From Deltaproteobacteria bacterium (GTDB lineage Bacteria; Myxococcota; JACPTQ01), in NCBI GenBank assembly GCA_016192705.1, contig JACPTQ010000055.1, positions 21,014-85,013 on the forward strand: DNA of 64,000 nt, written 5' to 3'. Numbering within the stretch: position 1 is the first letter of the stretch; every line of letters begins with the position of its first letter. This document shows positions 566-37,484 of the stretch, in pieces. The notes below the pieces were generated by a model, which had not been told where the DNA came from, searched no databases, and saw only the letters and a program-made list of their open reading frames with translations. The translations under genes were made by a program, and so were the position numbers.

Positions 566-2476
566 CTACGACGTTGGCGGCAAACTTGTCGCGGCCAAAC
601 CACTTTTTTCTTCGACCCCCGGTGTCACCAAGTTATCGCCGGTCGCGGCCCCGTCCCATAACGGAAACTTTAGCCGAAAAGTCGTCCCGACGTTGACGGT
701 GCTGTCAACATCGATCGTTCCGTTATGCGCCTTCACGATGCCGAGCGTCACCGACAACCCAAGCCCCGTCCCCTTTCCCGGCTCCTTGCTTGTAAAAAAC
801 GGATCGAAGATTCGCGATACATTCTCAGGCGGAATCCCGCAACCCGTATCGGCAACTCTAATCTCCGCCGTTCCGCCGTCCGCAGCGCGCGTAGAAACGG
901 TTATCTTGCCACCGCCCGACTTCTCCATCGCCTGCGCCGCGTTGACAAGCAGATTGATGAGAACCTGTTCAAGTTGGTTAAACGCGCCGCGAATATCCGG
1001 AAGCGCCACATCAAGCTCGCGAAACACCTTGACGCCCATCGTCGCGAGCTGATGCGCAACGAGCGTCATCGCATCTTCCGCAACCTTGTTGAGTGAAATC
1101 TTCTCGAACTTAACCTCCTCCTTACGCGCAAACTTGAGCAAGCTGTCGATGATCTCCTTGGTGCGCTTCCCTTCTTTTTCGATCAACTTGAGATAGCGCG
1201 TCACTTGATGGTCTTCGGCAAGAACCCGCTGCCCGAGCTGCGCGAAACCGATGATTCCCGCGAGCGGATTCTTCAGCTCGTGCGTGATTCCCGCGGACAT
1301 GCGCCCAAGCGCCGAAAGCTTCTCGGACTGGATCAGCTCCATGCGCGCCTGTTCGAGCTTCGTGTCGCGCTGCACAAGCCCCTCCTGCATCTGTTTGAAC
1401 GCGGTCGATAGAACGCCAACCTCATTCTTTGCGCGAACATCAATATCGACGTGGAAATCGCCCTTCGCGATGGCGTGGCTCGCGAGTGTCAGGCGCTCGA
1501 TGGGATTCACAATGGAACGCGCGAAGAAGAGCGCCACGATCGCGGCAACAATAAACACAGCGGCGACGATCAGCACGGCTTTCTGCGTAAGCCCCTCGAG
1601 CGCGTCGGTCGCCAACTTCTTTGAGAATTCGACAATCACCGCGGCATCCGTTCCGGAAAGCGGGGCGAGCGCCCCAATGACATCACGATCTCCGACGCGA
1701 TAGCTCTTCGTGATCGCGGCACCTGTACCGTCGCCAGCTGCGTCGCCACCCCGAGGGCTCGTTCGAAATACCTCCGCGAGCGGATTCGAGACAACCGACC
1801 CCACCTGAACCGACGCCGTCTTGAGCAGGGCCGAACCGGTCCGGTCGATGATGGTTCGCTCGGAGCCGATGCGCCCCTCGTGCCGCGCCACGTCTATGTT
1901 CGCAAGCAAAAAAATCGTCGCCGCGCGAGTCGCGCTCTCGGCTCGGTCGGTTTTCCCGGCTGCGCCACGCGGGACGATCGTCATGCGAACAGGGATGTTG
2001 GCGCGAAACCAAAGGAGGGGACGATCGCCGACGCCTGGAAAGGCGCCCAAATCAAGAAACCCCGGCTTAATCGGGCGGCTTGCCGTCCGTTCAACGAATC
2101 CAGCGAACGAATTTGATGGGACCCCCAGACGCTTTTCGAAATCGGCACGTATCCGCACCATCGGCGTCTCGGACTCCAGTCGAAGTGACACGGCGAAAAA
2201 GTTCTTTTGGGCGTCGAAGCGGCCCGCCACAAACTCTTCAAAACGCTCCTTTGAATCGATCACCCTGCGTTCGACGATGAGGCGCTGCAGCTCGACGATC
2301 TTCGACAACTCTGCTTTGAGCTGCATGGCAAAATTGGAGGCGTCGTCTTGCGCGAACGAATCGATGTCGCGGACCTTGTCCGACATGAATTCGCGAAGAC
2401 CGAACCAAAACACAATGGCAAGCGGCGCAAAAATTAGGAGGATCATGATGAGAAGAAGGCGGAGACGAATCGACAT
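566..2476 (-). CDS. Membrane sensor histidine kinase (HAMP-HisKA-HATPase)
   Basis: 636 residues. A first membrane helix (about 7-27) and a second (about 298-320) bracket a roughly 270-residue extracytoplasmic sensor region. A HAMP linker follows (about 320-375), then the H box SAGITHELKNPLAG with phosphoacceptor H399, the N box with N512, the G1 box DTGCGIPP (about 543-550) and the G2 box GKGTGLGLS. This is an NtrB/AtoS-like orthodox kinase that autophosphorylates on H399 and passes phosphate to the receiver encoded directly downstream. The sensor domain is not recognised, so the stimulus is unknown. The last 30 residues after the ATPase core look like a disordered tail. Confidence 0.93.
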   Translation of the reverse strand: MSIRLRLLLIMILLIFAPLAIVFWFGLREFMSDKVRDIDSFAQDDASNFAMQLKAELSKIVELQRLIVERRVIDSKERFEEFVAGRFDAQKNFFAVSLRLESETPMVRIRADFEKRLGVPSNSFAGFVERTASRPIKPGFLDLGAFPGVGDRPLLWFRANIPVRMTIVPRGAAGKTDRAESATRAATIFLLANIDVARHEGRIGSERTIIDRTGSALLKTASVQVGSVVSNPLAEVFRTSPRGGDAAGDGTGAAITKSYRVGDRDVIGALAPLSGTDAAVIVEFSKKLATDALEGLTQKAVLIVAAVFIVAAIVALFFARSIVNPIERLTLASHAIAKGDFHVDIDVRAKNEVGVLSTAFKQMQEGLVQRDTKLEQARMELIQSEKLSALGRMSAGITHELKNPLAGIIGFAQLGQRVLAEDHQVTRYLKLIEKEGKRTKEIIDSLLKFARKEEVKFEKISLNKVAEDAMTLVAHQLATMGVKVFRELDVALPDIRGAFNQLEQVLINLLVNAAQAMEKSGGGKITVSTRAADGGTAEIRVADTGCGIPPENVSRIFDPFFTSKEPGKGTGLGLSVTLGIVKAHNGTIDVDSTVNVGTTFRLKFPLWDGAATGDNLVTPGVEEKSGLAATSLPPTS

Positions 2477-29825: not shown

Positions 29826-30676
29826 GGCCTCGCGGCGGACGGAATTCGCGCTCGAAGCACCACAGAGTCGCCATCGCTCGACACGGTCGCGCCCTCTACA
29901 AACGGCTTCGCGAGCTTCACCTCGGGGCGATCGCTCGGCGCCAGCATGAATCCGAGCTTCACAACTTGCAGCATTCCCTGAATATACTCCGCAAGCCGCC
30001 GCGCACTTGCGGGATCCGCCTTCGCGACAACCTCAACAATGAGCTCGCTCCCAAGCGCCGCGGTCACAACGAGTGCGCGAATCGCTTGCACCGCGTCGGT
30101 GACCTCGCGCGGCAACGGAATCATGCCCCCAATCGATTTTCCGATGTCGTTCCAACCTTTGAAAACGAACCGCACCGACTTGTCAGCGTGCTCACGAAGC
30201 GCGTCGATAAGCGGCGAACGCTCCTTTCGCGTCGACGCCGCCATCGCGCGCAGCGTCACCCCGGCCGAGCCAGCGACGAGAAACCCTTTCTCCTTGGCGA
30301 TTTCCCAGTTTCCGGGCCCCGTCGTTGGCAACTTAACGCCATCACCCGGCTGCATGACAAGCCCCGCGCCGCCCCCCGACAAAAAAAAGATCGTGACGGG
30401 CTTCGTCCCGACGCGTTTCTTTAAGTCGGCAACCGAAATCCCCCCAAGATCGACCCGTGGGTTTGCGAGCAACGCCGCGACGAGCGGGTGATCGAGAACC
30501 TTGGGGTCGACTTCGCCAACCCCAATGGCGTCCGCAGGTACGTAACGGAGCGCGCCGAGACCCGCGGCCCCCGTGCCGCGCCCGCCCGACGTCGCCGCGC
30601 AGCCGAATGGACATAGACCGATGAACGAGCCAAGCGCAGCGAGTCGAAAAATCGTCGCGCCCAAACCGACTTTCAT
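29822..30676 (-). CDS. Predicted lipoprotein of unknown function
   Basis: 284 residues. The N-terminal hydrophobic stretch ends in GLCPFGC, a fair lipobox, followed by a Gly/Thr-rich linker. The mature part has [40 protein letters not shown] and a helical middle, consistent with a two-domain alpha/beta fold, but no family is recognised. Many Myxococcota carry similar proteins starting with 'vPadA..v..vd' that resemble DUF3352-type domains; this is a loose resemblance. ATGA overlaps join it to pnp upstream and the GH42-like gene downstream. Confidence 0.72.
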
Positions 30677-32775
30677 TGGCGGGCTTCCTCATGCGCCTTG
30701 GCCGCCATCGCCTCGCGCCGCGACAGCCGAATCTTCCCGTCGCGGTCGACGTTAATGACCTTCACGAGCGTCTCATCGCCCTCACGCAGCACGTCCGTCA
30801 CCTTCGCAACGCGCTTTGTGTCGAGCTCCGAGATGTGGCACATCCCGTCGATCCCCGGCAAAATCTCGATAAACGCCCCGAAATCCGCAATGCGCCGCAC
30901 CGTCCCGAGGTAGGTCTTACCGACCTCCGCCTCCTGCGTGAGGCTCTTGATAATCCTCAGCGCCTTCTCAGCCGCGATGCCGTCGGCCGACGCGATCTTC
31001 ACGGTTCCGTTGTCCTCGACGTCGATGACACACCCCGTCTCCTCGATGATTCCGCGAATCACCTTGCCGCCCGGCCCGATCACCGACTTGATCTGCTCGG
31101 GCTTAATCTGCACGGTCACGATGCGAGGCGCCGTCGCCGACAGCTCGGGTCGCGGCGCCGCAATCGCTTCCGCCATCTTGCCCAAAATGTGAAGCCGCCC
31201 ATCGCGCGCCTGATAAAGCGCCTGCTCGAGCACCGCACGCGACACGCCCCCAACCTTGTTGTCCATCTGCAGCGCGGTCACGCCGTCCTTCGTGCCGCAC
31301 ACTTTGAAGTCCATGTCGCCCAAGTGGTCTTCGTCGCCCAAAATATCCGACAAAACCGCCATGCGGTCGCCTTCTTTGATAAGGCCCATCGCAATCCCCG
31401 CAACGGGCGCTTTGACCGGCACGCCGCAATCCATGAGCGACAAACTTGCGCCGCAGACCGACGCCATCGAGCTCGACCCGTTCGATTCCAAAATTTCCGA
31501 CACGATGCGGACGGTGTACGGAAACGCCCCGTAGTCGGGCATCACGCGCGAAATCGCCCGCTCGGCAAGCGCCCCGTGCCCAATCTCGCGCCGCCCCGGC
31601 GATCGCAGCGGCTTCACCTCGCCGACCGAAAACGGCGGAAAGTTGTAATGCAGCATGAATCGCTTTGTGTGTTCGCCGGTCAAAAGTTCGATCCGCTGCT
31701 CATCCTGGCTCGTTCCGAGCGTCGTCGTCACGATCGCCTGCGTCTCACCGCGCTGAAACAGCCCCGACCCATGGGTCCGCGGCAAAAGGCCCACTTCGCA
31801 CGTGATCGGCCGAATATCTTTCGTCCCGCGTCCGTCGATCCGCCGCCCCTCGGCCAAAATCATCTCGCGCACGTAGTGCTTCTTGAAGCTGTCGATCGCC
31901 CCCGCGACTTCCTTCTCACGCCCCGCGAACTCCGCCGCGAGCGCCGCTTTCGCCGCCGTCTCAACTTCGTGGAGCTTTGCGTACCGCGGAAGCTTCTCGC
32001 GAAACGCATAGGCCGCGAGGATTCCAGGCCCCGCGACCTCCTTCACTCGCTTCGCAAGCGCCTCGTCCTTGGCCGGTGGCGCGAACGCCATCTTCGGCTT
32101 CCCAACCGCCTCGCGAATCCGCTCGATAAGCGCCAAGACCGGCTGCACCGCATCGTGCCCGAAAAGCAGCGCGTCGATCATCACCTCTTCGCTGATGTTC
32201 TTGCCGCCCCCCTCGACCATGACGATCGAGTCTTTCGTTGCGACCATCGTGATGTCGATGTCGCACTCTTCGCACTCTTTATAGGTGGGGTTCGCAACAA
32301 ATCGCCCGCCGATGCGCCCGACGCGCACGCCCGCCGTCGGCCCCGCCCAGGGGATATCGCTCACGTGAAGCGCGACCGACGCGCCGATCGACGCGAGCGT
32401 GTCGGGGTTCACATCGAGGTCGGCCGACAAAACCGTCGCGATCACCTGCGTTTCGTTTTTGTACCCCTTCGGGAAAAGCGGACGAATCGGGCGATCGTTA
32501 AGCCGCGACGTCAAAACTTCCTTCTCGGTCGGGCGCCCTTCGCGCTTAAAAAAACCACCCGGGATCTTCCCAGCCGCAAACGTCTTCTCGATGTAATCGA
32601 CGGTCAGCGGGAAAAAATCGAGCCCTTCGCGCGGCTGCTTCGCCGCGCACGCCGTGACGAGAACAACGGTGTCGCCCGCCCGCACGAGCGCCGAACCGTT
32701 CGCTTGGCGCGCAAGGCGCCCCACCTCGATGACAATCTCCGTCGCCCCGAGCTTCACTGACTCTTTAACAATCAT
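30673..32775 (-). CDS. pnp: Polynucleotide phosphorylase (PNPase)
   Basis: 700 residues, the normal length. Two RNase PH domains (about 10-145 and 310-545; [53 protein letters not shown]) flank an alpha-helical domain. A KH domain with [10 protein letters not shown] and an S1 domain ([20 protein letters not shown]) follow. It degrades RNA 3'-5' using phosphate and is a core degradosome component. rpsO lies directly upstream, the ancestral order. Its stop overlaps the start of the next gene. Confidence 0.98.
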
Positions 32776-32861: not shown

Positions 32862-33131
32862 CTACTTACGGATACCGAGGTCTTGAATGACCTTGTGATA
32901 GCGGTCGATGTCCTTTTTCACGAGGTAGTTCAAGAGCCTGCGGCGCGCGCTAACGATTTTGAGAAGGCCGCGTCGCGAGTGATGGTCCTTGACGTGCGTT
33001 TGAAAATGGTGCGTGAGCCCGTTGATCCGCTCGGTCAAAAGCGCGATCTGAACTTCGGGCGACCCCGTGTCGGTCCCGTGCTTCTGATACTTCGTGATAA
33101 CTTCCGACTTTTTCTCTGCCAAGAGCGTCAT
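32862..33131 (-). CDS. rpsO: 30S ribosomal protein S15
   Basis: 89 residues, full length. Signatures are [20 protein letters not shown] and [20 protein letters not shown], ending [13 protein letters not shown]15 binds 16S rRNA early in 30S assembly. A good promoter lies 43-72 nt upstream. pnp follows on the same strand after 86 nt. Confidence 0.98.
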
Positions 33132-33246: not shown

Positions 33247-33873
33247 TCACGGGACGCGGAGCACAAAAATAACGCGTTGAACCAAGTAACATTTGCAGCC
33301 GCGAATCCAGGGTGCGATGAAACGGCTTGTCAACGACATCGACTCGACGGTGAGCCCGGCGTCAGCAAAAACAGCCCGCCACGCGTCGGCCGACCGCGCG
33401 TCCTCAACGGTCGACGTTCCAAAGGCCCGCTGGTGCCCCGCGCAAAGGCAGCGGTCAAAGTGCGAGGCGATTGAATCTTCAAAGACGTAGAGGCGACGCC
33501 GCGTGACGCGCATGAGCTCTCGCACGAGTCCAAGCTGACGCGTTGCGGGAACATGGTGCAAAACGAACGCAATTATCGCGGAATCGAACGATTTCTCGGG
33601 AAATGGGATGGTGCGCCCGTCGTACACAATGCTCGCGCCGAATCGGTTTTCATTTGCGAGGTCGATGCAGGTGACGTCGATCGTCGTGTCGCTTTGCCGG
33701 AGCCACTCGGCGTTCAGCCCGTCGCCCGCGCCCAAATCGAGGAATCGTGTTTCATCCCTCGCGCGATGTCGTTCGATCGTGCGCGGCACAAGGCGATGCT
33801 GCGCGCGAAGGTAGACCGCAACGCACGCGGCAATCGCGACGCCCGCGCCGAAAACAAGGCCGACGGTTCCCAT
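33247..33873 (-). CDS. Membrane-anchored class I SAM methyltransferase
   Basis: 208 residues from ATG 33873, with GGGAGGT 8 nt upstream. The N-terminus is a membrane helix (GTVGLVFGAGVAIAACVAVY). The Rossmann core has FLDLGAGDG (motif I), VTCIDLANEN, and FDSAIIAFVLHHVP with LVRELMRVTRRRLYVFED, the Methyltransf_11 order. The C-terminal 60 residues keep the pattern of small-molecule or lipid methyltransferases. Substrate unknown; the anchor suggests a lipid-soluble one. The open frame continues to 34047 but overlaps nothing functional there. Confidence 0.8.
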   Translation of the reverse strand: MGTVGLVFGAGVAIAACVAVYLRAQHRLVPRTIERHRARDETRFLDLGAGDGLNAEWLRQSDTTIDVTCIDLANENRFGASIVYDGRTIPFPEKSFDSAIIAFVLHHVPATRQLGLVRELMRVTRRRLYVFEDSIASHFDRCLCAGHQRAFGTSTVEDARSADAWRAVFADAGLTVESMSLTSRFIAPWIRGCKCYLVQRVIFVLRVP

Positions 33874-33950: not shown

Positions 33951-36116
33951 CTAGAAGCGCACATTCGCGCCCGCCGCGAACGACCAGGTGAAGCGCTGCG
34001 CGTCGTCCTTGAACGCGAGCATGATGCCCGGCCCCGTGTCGAACCAAAACCCGAATTTGCGCGTGTGGTCATATTCGACGCCAATTGCCGCGCGCGGGTG
34101 GAGCGCGAAGTTCGAGCCACCGCCCATGACGAGCCCGCCGTTCCACATGAAGTAGGGCTTCCACTGGCCTTTCATGAAGTAGTAACGCATGCCGTACCCC
34201 AAGATGAATTCCGTCGAATCGACGTACGCGTTCGCGCCGATGCCGATGCGGATGATGTGCTGCCACGTTTTGCCGAACCCCAAAAGAAGAGTCGGCACGT
34301 AGCCGACACGGCTGTTGTCGGGCGGCGTTATTTTCGAGCCCATGACGTATGGAATGTTGAGCGCCTCGAAGCCGAGGAGCGTTTGGCCCGCGTGCGAGAG
34401 GTCGACGTTGTCTTCGACTTTTGTCGGTGGCGGTTCCGTGACGGTCGTCGTCGGCCCGGGCGGAGGTGGCGTGGGCGGCGTCGGCTTCCCGGTCGAGTCG
34501 AACGAAAGCCCATAAACCGTCGTGCCGCGCGAGTCATCGGCGAAAACGACGCGAATGCCGACCGAGAAAGCACCCCAGCCGGCTCGCGTGAGCGCAAACG
34601 TCGGCGACTCTTTTGGCGTGACGGTCACGATGCGTGGGTTAAACGTCGGGTGCAAAAGGTACGTCACCCACTTGACCTTCGCGCGCACCGCCTCGGGCGC
34701 CTTCATCTCGAGCGTCCATCGGAAGCTCCGGCCATCCGCCATCGGCTCCGCGGTGTTCGCGAACTTCACTTGCCGGCCAAGCTGCTCGACGAGCGGGCGC
34801 GCCGTCTCGGCCGGCTTTTTGAACGCGAGGGTGTGCTTTCCCGACGCCTTCGAGCCGTCGTTAAACTCGACTTCGATGCCGATGCCAAAAGTTCCCCAGC
34901 CCGTGTTGCTGTATGCGAACGTTGCGCTTTCGGCGCGCGTCACCGTCACGACGGGGTTCGGGAAGCTCGGGTGCAAGCGGTAGACGACCTTCGCAATTTC
35001 CGCCGCGACATCTGCGCCCGATGTCAGCGCAATCGTCCACCGGAACTGGTTTTGACCGAGATACTCCGACCTGTTGCCAAAGGCGAGGCGCGACGCGAAC
35101 TTCTCCGCGAGCGACTTTTCGACCGGCTTGATATCGACGACGGGCGCCTCAGCAACGGCGAACTGCACCAGCGGCAAATAAATGTAATTGGCCATTTCCC
35201 AAAACTGCGCGCGCGCGACCCACAAGTAGCCGCCCGAACCCCAGCCCTGCCCCCACGAATTCAAGATTTGGTAGGCGTCGTGTTTCGGGTCCCAGCCCGC
35301 GAGAACGACGGCGTGCTTGCCGTGAACGCCGTTGAATCCCGCGGTCGAGCCGGCCCAAACGCCATTGTTGCCGCGCGTTTCGTCTTTGAGTCGAGCGCCT
35401 TGCTGCCACACCGCGGGCGTGTTGATCGAAACGAGCAAAGGGCGCTTATCGGCCGCGACCGCCGCGACGATCTTTTCGTGCGTCCGCGCGGGATCGCCCA
35501 TCTCGCCCGCGCGCCCACGCGCGTAAACCCCGAGGAGCTGAAAGCCCCGCGGCGCAACGCGAATTCTTGCCGCGTCGGACAAAACCGAATCGGACGGCGG
35601 CTCGTATTTGCACCCGCTGTAACCCGCAGCGTAACGCCACGTTGCCTCGCGTGGAACACCGCGCGTGCGAAGCGGTTCGTCGTAATCGCCGTACCACGTG
35701 CCGCGCTTACAAAACTCCGAAAAGAGGAGCGCCGGGTTGCCGCGGTAAAGGTCGTTGTTGCGCGCGACCTCTTCGTAGAGGAAGCGCGCGGAGAGGCGTT
35801 CGCGCGGCGCGATGAGGCCCTGGCGAGCCGCATGGTACGAAAGCACCGACGCCAAGGCCCAGGCGCTGCAACTCGCCCAACCCTGCTGGTCGCCGGGCGG
35901 CGGCATCTCGAGCTCAGTTGTCGCACTCGCGTCAGAAAGCGGCGCGCGCGGGAAATCGGAGAGGCGATACGGCGTCAGCGAGTGAAAGTAAAAGTCCTCG
36001 TTATAAACGATCGGTGCTGCAGCGGGCGCGGGCACTTCGCTCTTGGGGGACGCTGGCGCCGGGAGAAACGAGAGGACGAGGGCGACGAAAAAAACATTGC
36101 GATGGGCGGCAGTCAT
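33951..36116 (-). CDS. Papain-like protease fused to two pYEATS domains and a C-terminal beta-barrel
   Basis: 721 residues. Signal peptide about 1-22. The C1-type peptidase domain (about 40-315) has the active Cys in QQGWASCSAWALA (C83), His in HGKHAVVLAGW (H268) and Asn in LNSWGQGWGSGGYLWV (N286). Two pYEATS domains follow (about 338-432 and 443-540), each with an aromatic W.i.l strand, YRLHPSFPNP or YLLHPTFNPR, and TGWGTFGIGI or AGWGAFSVGI. A Pro-rich linker (541-565) leads to a region of alternating beta strands ending in Phe (570-721), like an outer-membrane barrel. The combination is discussed in the findings. Confidence 0.88.
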   Translation of the reverse strand: MTAAHRNVFFVALVLSFLPAPASPKSEVPAPAAAPIVYNEDFYFHSLTPYRLSDFPRAPLSDASATTELEMPPPGDQQGWASCSAWALASVLSYHAARQGLIAPRERLSARFLYEEVARNNDLYRGNPALLFSEFCKRGTWYGDYDEPLRTRGVPREATWRYAAGYSGCKYEPPSDSVLSDAARIRVAPRGFQLLGVYARGRAGEMGDPARTHEKIVAAVAADKRPLLVSINTPAVWQQGARLKDETRGNNGVWAGSTAGFNGVHGKHAVVLAGWDPKHDAYQILNSWGQGWGSGGYLWVARAQFWEMANYIYLPLVQFAVAEAPVVDIKPVEKSLAEKFASRLAFGNRSEYLGQNQFRWTIALTSGADVAAEIAKVVYRLHPSFPNPVVTVTRAESATFAYSNTGWGTFGIGIEVEFNDGSKASGKHTLAFKKPAETARPLVEQLGRQVKFANTAEPMADGRSFRWTLEMKAPEAVRAKVKWVTYLLHPTFNPRIVTVTPKESPTFALTRAGWGAFSVGIRVVFADDSRGTTVYGLSFDSTGKPTPPTPPPPGPTTTVTEPPPTKVEDNVDLSHAGQTLLGFEALNIPYVMGSKITPPDNSRVGYVPTLLLGFGKTWQHIIRIGIGANAYVDSTEFILGYGMRYYFMKGQWKPYFMWNGGLVMGGGSNFALHPRAAIGVEYDHTRKFGFWFDTGPGIMLAFKDDAQRFTWSFAAGANVRF

Positions 36117-36189: not shown

Positions 36190-36712
36190 CTGAATCCCAA
36201 GTCGCCGGATAAGCGATTCGTTCGCTCGTGAGCGTGAGGGTCGACAGGAGCCCGCTTCGGCGCGCCGACGTCCTCGGGTCTGCTTTGAGACGTGCGATTG
36301 ATTCGCAGTTCAGAGGCATGCGAAAGCTCGGTGGTCCTAGCCGATATTGCGCTGCAGACCCTGCGGAGGCCCGCCTCTGCGGCGCCCCTGCCGACCCTAC
36401 GCAAGTCCGGGCGGACCGCTTTCCGGAGACGTATTTTCTGGGCTTGAGGGTGGTACGAAGAGTTTACCCCCTGGGTGTCGGCTGACGATCGATCGACCCC
36501 CAAGTCTCTCAACCGCCGTTGCGAGGGAACGGCCGGTTCCTGGTTGGGCGGGCGGGGATTGGGCAAGCTGAGGCTCGCGTCCGCAGGGGATGAGGTGCCG
36601 ATGGGGCGTGGAATTGCCGTTCTCGTCATGTTTGATTCATTTCGTACAGGCTCACATCTAATGTCAGACCCGAGGTCTTCCGCGAGCCGGATGGCCGCTA
36701 ACCGGGAATCAG
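36190..36712. repeat. Dispersed intergenic repeat, copy A
   Basis: This fills most of the gene-free stretch 36117-36801. Read on the minus strand it matches copy B (49200-49746) over nearly its whole length, about three quarters identical by eye, including CTCATCCCCTGCGGACGCGA and GCAGGGTCTGCAGCGCAATA. Both ends carry GTCCTCGGGTCTG or a one-mismatch form in inverted orientation (36270-36282 and 36665-36677). Termini read CTGAATCCC at the left and CGGGAATCAGG at the right. Apparent reading frames through it are not conserved as protein. A toxin-antitoxin pair begins about 90 nt beyond. Confidence 0.8.
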
Positions 36713-36765
36713 GTTCTGAATGGCACGTCGATCAAAACGCTGGCGGCGTGTCGGTAGAAGCTGAG

Positions 36766-36801
36766 TTGACACGTAGCTATACACATAGCTATCATATATG
36801 C
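36766..36801 (+). promoter_or_regulatory. Leaderless promoter with tandem operator repeats for the toxin-antitoxin pair
   Basis: -35 TTGACA (36766-36771), 18-nt spacer, -10 TATCAT (36790-36795); the start codon at 36802 coincides with the expected transcription start, and no ribosome-binding site is present. The spacer holds two tandem 12-mers, ACACGTAGCTAT (36769-36780) and ACACATAGCTAT (36781-36792), each centred on the palindrome TAGCTA, as expected for binding by the antitoxin. Confidence 0.7.
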
Positions 36802-37077
36802 ATGAAAAGCGTAAACGCTCTCGAAGTGAGGCAGGCTCTCGGCAAGATTCTCGACCGGCTCGATCGCGACGGCGAGCCGATCATCGTTAAAAAAGGGCGG
36901 GAGGAGAGGGCGGTGCTCGTCCCGCTCAAGCTGTTTCTGGAGAGGTTCGTGGACAAGACGGTCCACGAAGAACGGCTGCGACTCGCGCGCCAGTTCTTGG
37001 TTCAACAGCGGGCGAAGACGCGGAAGGGCCCGCCCGCCGAGGTCCTCGTGCGACAACTGCGCGGACCGCTTCCGTGA
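36802..37077 (+). CDS. Type II antitoxin, Phd/YefM-VapB-like
   Basis: 91 residues. The N-terminal MKSVNALEVRQALGKILDRL with GEPIIVKKGREERAVLVPL follows the Phd/YefM DNA-binding fold ('vsa.elr..l..ll..v..gepv.itr.gk..avlvs'). The C-terminal 45 residues are a basic helix expected to wrap around the toxin. The frame overlaps the toxin start (GTGA), typical of translational coupling. The frame stays open into repeat A, but the promoter places the start at 36802. Confidence 0.85.
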   Translation: MKSVNALEVRQALGKILDRLDRDGEPIIVKKGREERAVLVPLKLFLERFVDKTVHEERLRLARQFLVQQRAKTRKGPPAEVLVRQLRGPLP

Positions 37078-37484
37078 CGGAAATCCCGGACGCCTCGGTC
37101 GCGATCAAGTGGTTCGTGCGCGAGGGTGAAACGGGCCTCGAAGCCGCGGACGAGGTCCACGGGCGTGTGGTCGTCTCCGCGGACCGATTCGCCGTACCGA
37201 CCCTCTTCGTTTATGAAGTCGCGGCAACCCTTTGCCGCCGGATCGCCTTGGAAAACGACCTCAAGACCAACCTTCGCCTTCTCTGGGCACTCGCAATTCC
37301 GGCCGTAGCCCCCGACGAGGCCCTCATGGCGCTCGCTGCGGAGATCGCGTTCAAACATCGCGTCTCAGGTTATGACGCGGCTTACATCGCTCTCGCGGTT
37401 CACCTGCGTGGCACGTGGCTTACGTTCGACGCCGAAGCGTTTCGGCGCGTCAGATCGCTCGGCGTCGCGCGGCTCTTGAGATGA
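37074..37484 (+). CDS. PIN-domain toxin (VapC-like ribonuclease)
   Basis: 136 residues from GTG 37074. The four PIN acidic residues are visible: Asp in IPDASVAIKWF, Glu in VYEVAATL, Asp in VSGYDAAYIALA and Asp in WLTFDAEAF. VapC toxins cleave tRNA or rRNA when free of antitoxin. Pairing a PIN toxin with a Phd-like antitoxin is common. It is convergent with the HD hydrolase gene, only 2 nt apart. Confidence 0.93.
   Translation: MTEIPDASVAIKWFVREGETGLEAADEVHGRVVVSADRFAVPTLFVYEVAATLCRRIALENDLKTNLRLLWALAIPAVAPDEALMALAAEIAFKHRVSGYDAAYIALAVHLRGTWLTFDAEAFRRVRSLGVARLLR

Follow-up and report, generated by a model that had tools for sequence, protein, structure and literature searches.

Human YEATS family domains read acyl-lysine marks. 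The pYEATS family (PF20305) comprises prokaryotic relatives of eukaryotic YEATS (PF03366; Yaf9, YEATS2, GAS41 and AF9), and a paper on pYEATS by Burroughs and Aravind reportedly links these domains to conflict systems. In AF9 the cage that holds acetyl-lysine is formed by Phe28, His56, Ser58, Phe59, Tyr78 and Phe81 (PMC8022399). Whether bacteria have acyl-lysine readers, YEATS included, is a question posed in 2021 by a review on lysine acylation in bacteria (PMC8556138).

The window, a stretch of 64,000 nucleotides from a Deltaproteobacteria bacterium assembly (phylum Myxococcota), holds the sole pYEATS gene of its genome. The gene was read as one open reading frame with its stop, and its ATG is the sole plausible start, as the frame is closed by a TAA four codons 5′ of it. 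The 721-aa product runs from a signal peptide through a C1 peptidase domain, two pYEATS domains and a Pro/Thr-rich linker to a C-terminal domain:

33951..36116, minus strand: complete coding sequence, 721 aa (ORF and translation)
36042..36116, minus strand: signal peptide, residues 1-25, MTAAHRNVFFVALVLSFLPAPAS... (sequence; AlphaFold helix 3-16)
35142..36005, minus strand: C1 papain-like peptidase, about residues 38-325 (Pfam PF00112; phmmer)
35868..35870, minus strand: catalytic Cys83 in DQQGWASCSAW, where Q77 is the oxyanion Gln (motif alignment, position check)
35313..35315, minus strand: catalytic His268 in GKHAVVLAGWD (Pfam, position check)
35259..35261, minus strand: catalytic Asn286 in NSWG (Pfam, position check)
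34818..35093, minus strand: pYEATS domain 1, residues 342-433, motif H382 S384 F385 / W407 F410 (Pfam, AlphaFold, PDB profile)
34497..34775, minus strand: pYEATS domain 2, residues 448-540, motif H489 T491 F492 / W514 F517 (Pfam, AlphaFold, PDB profile)
34401..34484, minus strand: Pro/Thr-rich linker, residues 545-572 (sequence; disordered in the AlphaFold model)
33954..34400, minus strand: C-terminal domain, probably an 8-strand outer-membrane protein (OMP) barrel, residues 573-721, end FTWSFAAGANVRF (paralogue L004; hhalign)

The signal peptide proposed in the earlier note has n, h and c regions and an A-x-A in sequence, with the lipobox Cys absent; the mature protein contains three cysteines (83, 136, 169). 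Downstream on the same strand lie a methyltransferase gene (33247-33873), rpsO (32862-33131) and pnp (30673-32775), the last two named from their own sequences. On the upstream side, in divergent orientation, a Phd/YefM antitoxin gene is paired with a PIN toxin gene (36475-37484). Because the listed antitoxin ORF is extended far at its N-terminus, the position where it really begins is probably close to 36800. The 721-aa protein has no NCBIfam match, and no relative of the whole protein was found by searching the genome contigs or by tblastn of the plasmid and phage collections.

Pfam Peptidase_C1 (PF00112) is matched above cut-off by the whole protein (1.1e-5) and by the N-terminal part searched alone (3.1e-6), with the match spanning only the His/Asn half of the domain. 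The complete C1 triad described in the earlier note (C83, H268, N286) is borne out: the residue numbers are right by position and in C1 order, and the oxyanion Q77 is in place as well, six residues ahead of C83 as in papain. By phmmer the domain resembles exported bacterial C1s (1e-14 to 1e-11). It is very diverged, with a branch length of 3.45 in our C1 tree, and its AlphaFold pLDDT is mostly <50 on a shallow alignment. The gap between signal peptide and C83 is too short for an inhibitory propeptide of the usual length. The earlier note's reading of the protein as a papain-like (C1) protease is supported, and proteolytic activity is predicted.

Both pYEATS domains are true YEATS folds. The pair was recognised from motifs in the earlier note, and Pfam PF20305 now matches over two stretches at 3.3e-32 (110.6 bits against a curated cut-off of 26.9), while the YEATS family is matched over its cut-off at 1.1e-26; a profile built here, with these sequences among its members, gives each copy an i-E of about 1e-37. 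AlphaFold pLDDT is about 82-97 across both domains, and the best Foldseek matches in the PDB are the human YEATS domains of GAS41, YEATS2, ENL and AF9 (probability 1.00), several of the matched structures having been solved with acyl-lysine peptides. A seven-domain pYEATS profile searched against the PDB found Yaf9 (5.7e-14) and YEATS2 (3.3e-11). Five positions of the AF9 cage were compared, and the spacing of His56, Ser58, Phe59, Tyr78 and Phe81 is present in both copies, with W replacing Y in each and T replacing S in copy 2. The pocket motif is intact in both copies, which supports the earlier view of these domains as the probable binding module. The literature searched gave no ligand for any pYEATS.

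The C-terminal domain is probably an outer-membrane barrel, for which eight amphipathic strands, counted by eye, are predicted; its end FTWSFAAGANVRF appears to resemble a BAM beta-signal. One paralogue of the module occurs in the same genome (L004, G000:C70:20662-21195), and the two modules are 67-72% identical; a dN of 0.17 against a dS of 2.0 shows strong constraint on their protein sequence. The L004 protein (ORF 1501-2382, minus strand) is an exported coiled-coil protein in which a signal peptide, a charged coiled coil, EEEKKKLEEDRRKLEEEKK, and a Pro-rich linker precede the same domain, and this copy on an unrelated exported passenger suggests that the barrel is a reusable anchor. An apparent glutamate racemase gene adjoins L004. 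A profile of the two modules found L178, a 191-residue exported protein from another genome of the phylum that itself matches OMP_b-brl (PF13505) at 5.3e-7. By hhalign, over 53-64 columns, the module aligns with L178 at E 4.4e-5 (probability 69) and with a four-member OMP_b-brl-like profile at E 2.6e-7 (probability 93). The barrel of the earlier note is likely on these lines: the paralogue, the constraint on both copies, the OMP_b-brl relatives and the terminal FTWSFAAGANVRF. The PF13505 profile does not match the domain directly. Single-sequence AlphaFold of the domain alone gave pLDDT 41.7, too low to speak for or against a barrel. In the full-length model pLDDT is <50 over nearly all of the domain; both models show strands, at pLDDT <60. 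A crude amphipathicity test was not above shuffles (409 of 2000 as high). When other enzyme-barrel fusions were sought in the window's genome, only ordinary OMPs came up.

Relatives were sought in 84,980 species genomes with a DNA pattern that describes the pYEATS core; the scan yielded 114 stretches, with pYEATS by profile in 88 ORFs. PF20305 matched 89/89 ORFs scanned (query included); TIR was found in 18 of these, Peptidase_C1 in four and caspase in two, counts that are biased because the pattern selects an intact motif. A signal peptide or membrane anchor lies ahead of pYEATS in 29/88 ORFs by a rough test that missed some, for example those cut at contig ends, and exported pYEATS is therefore a common class. 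The exported pYEATS found by pattern are often in tandem pairs, and in 9/12 exported tandem proteins both copies keep the pocket motif, which the pattern required once per locus. PF20305 occurs in 5/195 genomes of the phylum, with C1 solely in that of the window. One viral pattern match, L156, was rejected as not a pYEATS.

The pYEATS closest to the query (41% identity) are L057 (4127-4705, minus strand) and L085 (450-1031, plus strand), mutually similar membrane-anchored proteins of Anammoxibacter and a Pseudomonadota MAG. In two Bacteroidota (L151, 1625-7050; L087, 2-1053) a small membrane-protein gene adjoins the exported pYEATS gene; L151 also encodes a C1 protein that lacks a signal peptide and, further downstream, a possibly patatin-like ORF. 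A Patatin-POTRA-Omp85 protein is encoded near the exported tandem pYEATS gene of a Calditrichaceae MAG (L138, 1831-4563, plus strand).

Exported pYEATS are repeatedly tied to cysteine peptidases of two unrelated families. C1 followed by three YEATS-like domains, barrel-free, was found in L117 (a Spirochaetes MAG; complete, 593 aa), L146 (Spirochaetota; ends at a contig end), L150+L107 (Phycisphaera; a single gene) and L171 (Planctomycetota), with the signal peptide visible in L117 and L150; L061 (Phycisphaerae) shows these repeats too, at the end of a contig. The first repeat lacks the pocket motif in all the Spirochaetota and Planctomycetota C1 proteins, and the last retains it in all five C1+pYEATS relatives, under a search pattern that required the motif once per locus. 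Partly by the same design, the motif is present in at least one domain of every exported peptidase+pYEATS protein. In three Planctomycetota proteins of about 1240-1290 aa (L193, L194, L195) an exported, related C1 precedes a long series of YEATS-like repeats, all degenerate. Their full-sequence E values run from 1e-14 to 1e-32, where a shuffled control gave 3.4, and the repeats escape Pfam pYEATS. An exported caspase (C14) is joined to pYEATS in two Desulfobacterota (L074, 2507-4249, plus strand; L189, 115-1734, plus strand), L189 also having a PEGA domain. The earlier note had taken an exported pYEATS-protease to be without precedent, which these C1 and caspase proteins contradict, and a unique C1+pYEATS architecture was rejected once L117, L146, L150/L107 and L171 were found. 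Its claim of a novel arrangement holds in the narrower form that C1+pYEATS+barrel was found in one genome only, the single representative of its order. In the literature searched, exported peptidase+pYEATS proteins seem to have received little description.

In the C1 tree the four C1+pYEATS fusions form a supported clade (98/97), and the query falls outside, its branch very long and weakly supported. In the pYEATS tree the two query domains are mutual sisters (SH-aLRT 92-93) and group with the single-domain membrane-anchored L057 and L085 (97-98), apart from the C1 fusions. The trees suggest an internal pYEATS duplication and a separate assembly of C1+pYEATS in the query. Two independent fusion origins looked likely from the trees, but AU tests do not reject a common clade of query and fusions (p-AU 0.26 for C1, 0.40 for pYEATS), so there may have been one origin or two.

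Our main reading, to which we give a probability of roughly 0.5, is of a periplasmic cysteine protease that is tethered to the outer membrane and holds its substrate or partner with the YEATS domains. The papain-like endopeptidase would be exported by Sec, the C-terminal 8-strand barrel would insert in the outer membrane, and the Pro-rich linker would suspend protease and YEATS domains in the periplasm. The YEATS domains, placed between enzyme and anchor, would be the recognition part, their conserved aromatic pocket holding, beside the active site, either a partner protein or an acylated lysine or similar group on some protein or peptide. Barrel insertion, topology, proteolytic activity and ligand binding are all steps that we infer.

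The strongest competing reading takes the YEATS domains for simple Ig-like spacers, which would keep the protease at a set distance from its membrane anchor and bind no ligand. Spirochaetota and Planctomycetota C1 proteins have a first repeat that lacks the pocket motif, L193, L194 and L195 follow C1 with degenerate repeats only, and myxobacterial C1 relatives have other Ig-like tails at the same place; YEATS-like domains can thus also be plain Ig-like stalks, because repeats have lost the motif. Both query copies, however, keep every motif position, as do both copies in most exported tandem proteins and the last repeat of all five C1+pYEATS relatives (the latter two subject to the search bias noted above), and we consider the spacer explanation doubtful, if a serious one. 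Self-cleavage, in which the peptidase frees the YEATS part from the barrel, would suit the length of the Pro/Thr linker that separates the two, but no cleavage site or homologous case was found and a protease of this kind is also present in relatives that have no barrel, which makes this barely credible.

The side of the membrane on which the protease lies would follow from the barrel. Even-stranded OMP barrels of the OmpA/OmpX type have both termini in the periplasm, so eight strands would place the protease and YEATS domains there, and an anchored protease that faces the periplasm is more probable than the surface-anchored one of the earlier note. A surface protease, with the barrel anchoring or exporting protease and YEATS domains as in an autotransporter, would have the classical autotransporter order of N-terminal passenger and C-terminal barrel, and many myxobacteria are predatory. 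Against it, the C-terminal domain of about 150 residues fits 8 strands rather than the 12 or so of an autotransporter, has no Pfam match to the autotransporter barrel profile (about 270 residues) and is nearest to OMP_b-brl, an even-stranded family with both termini periplasmic; we regard it as improbable. We think it very unlikely that the protein belongs to a conflict system, acting in the envelope as a sensor protease directed at phage or competitors, in the manner of the cytoplasmic pYEATS-TIR proteins. TIR occurs among the pYEATS ORFs, exported caspase+pYEATS exists and the Phd/PIN pair adjoins the gene, but PADLOC did not match the protein and, in the neighbours tested, gave no more than weak mad2 and dGTPase matches and no defence system. 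The gene lies beside methyltransferase, rpsO and pnp. Around other exported pYEATS genes, families recur only as chance pairs, none of them defence. The conflict-system role repeated in the earlier note thus finds no defence context here.

Returning to the tethered periplasmic protease, bacteria seem to aim or hold proteases with reader-like domains outside the cytoplasm, because barrel-free relatives occur in two other phyla. We think it rather unlikely that these are true acyl-lysine-type YEATS readers, with the query as a periplasmic 'read-and-cut' protease and the barrel-free relatives likewise. The query and its relatives are nevertheless concrete acyl-lysine reader candidates with the pocket motif intact, in a compartment where such reading is not expected, and the candidate reader is physically joined to an enzyme with an easily assayed output, cleavage. 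Exported pYEATS proteins make up a class of some size, distinct from the TIR-linked proteins of the cytoplasm.

The two YEATS domains of the 721-aa protein have the fold, length and H-x-[ST]-F and G-W-G-x-F motifs of pYEATS and of eukaryotic YEATS. Compared with other pYEATS proteins, many of which are cytoplasmic (18/89 with TIR), the 721-aa protein is exported. The Spirochaetota and Planctomycetota C1+pYEATS proteins (27-29% identity to the query overall) likewise have an exported papain-like domain and then tandem pYEATS, but with three repeats, the first degenerate, and no barrel. L074 and L189 also join an exported cysteine peptidase to pYEATS, though of family C14, with one pYEATS and no barrel. 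The nearest C1 domains by phmmer, from the exported myxobacterial C1s L008, L009 and L011, share the GDQG.Q.SC region and a beta-rich C-terminal module; they have an Ig-like tail and, unlike the query, neither pYEATS nor barrel. The small barrels of OMP_b-brl resemble the C-terminal domain in length and profile, whereas that of the 721-aa protein is fused to a protease and has no direct PF13505 match. The parts are individually of known kinds, and the three-part protein is a new variation on them.
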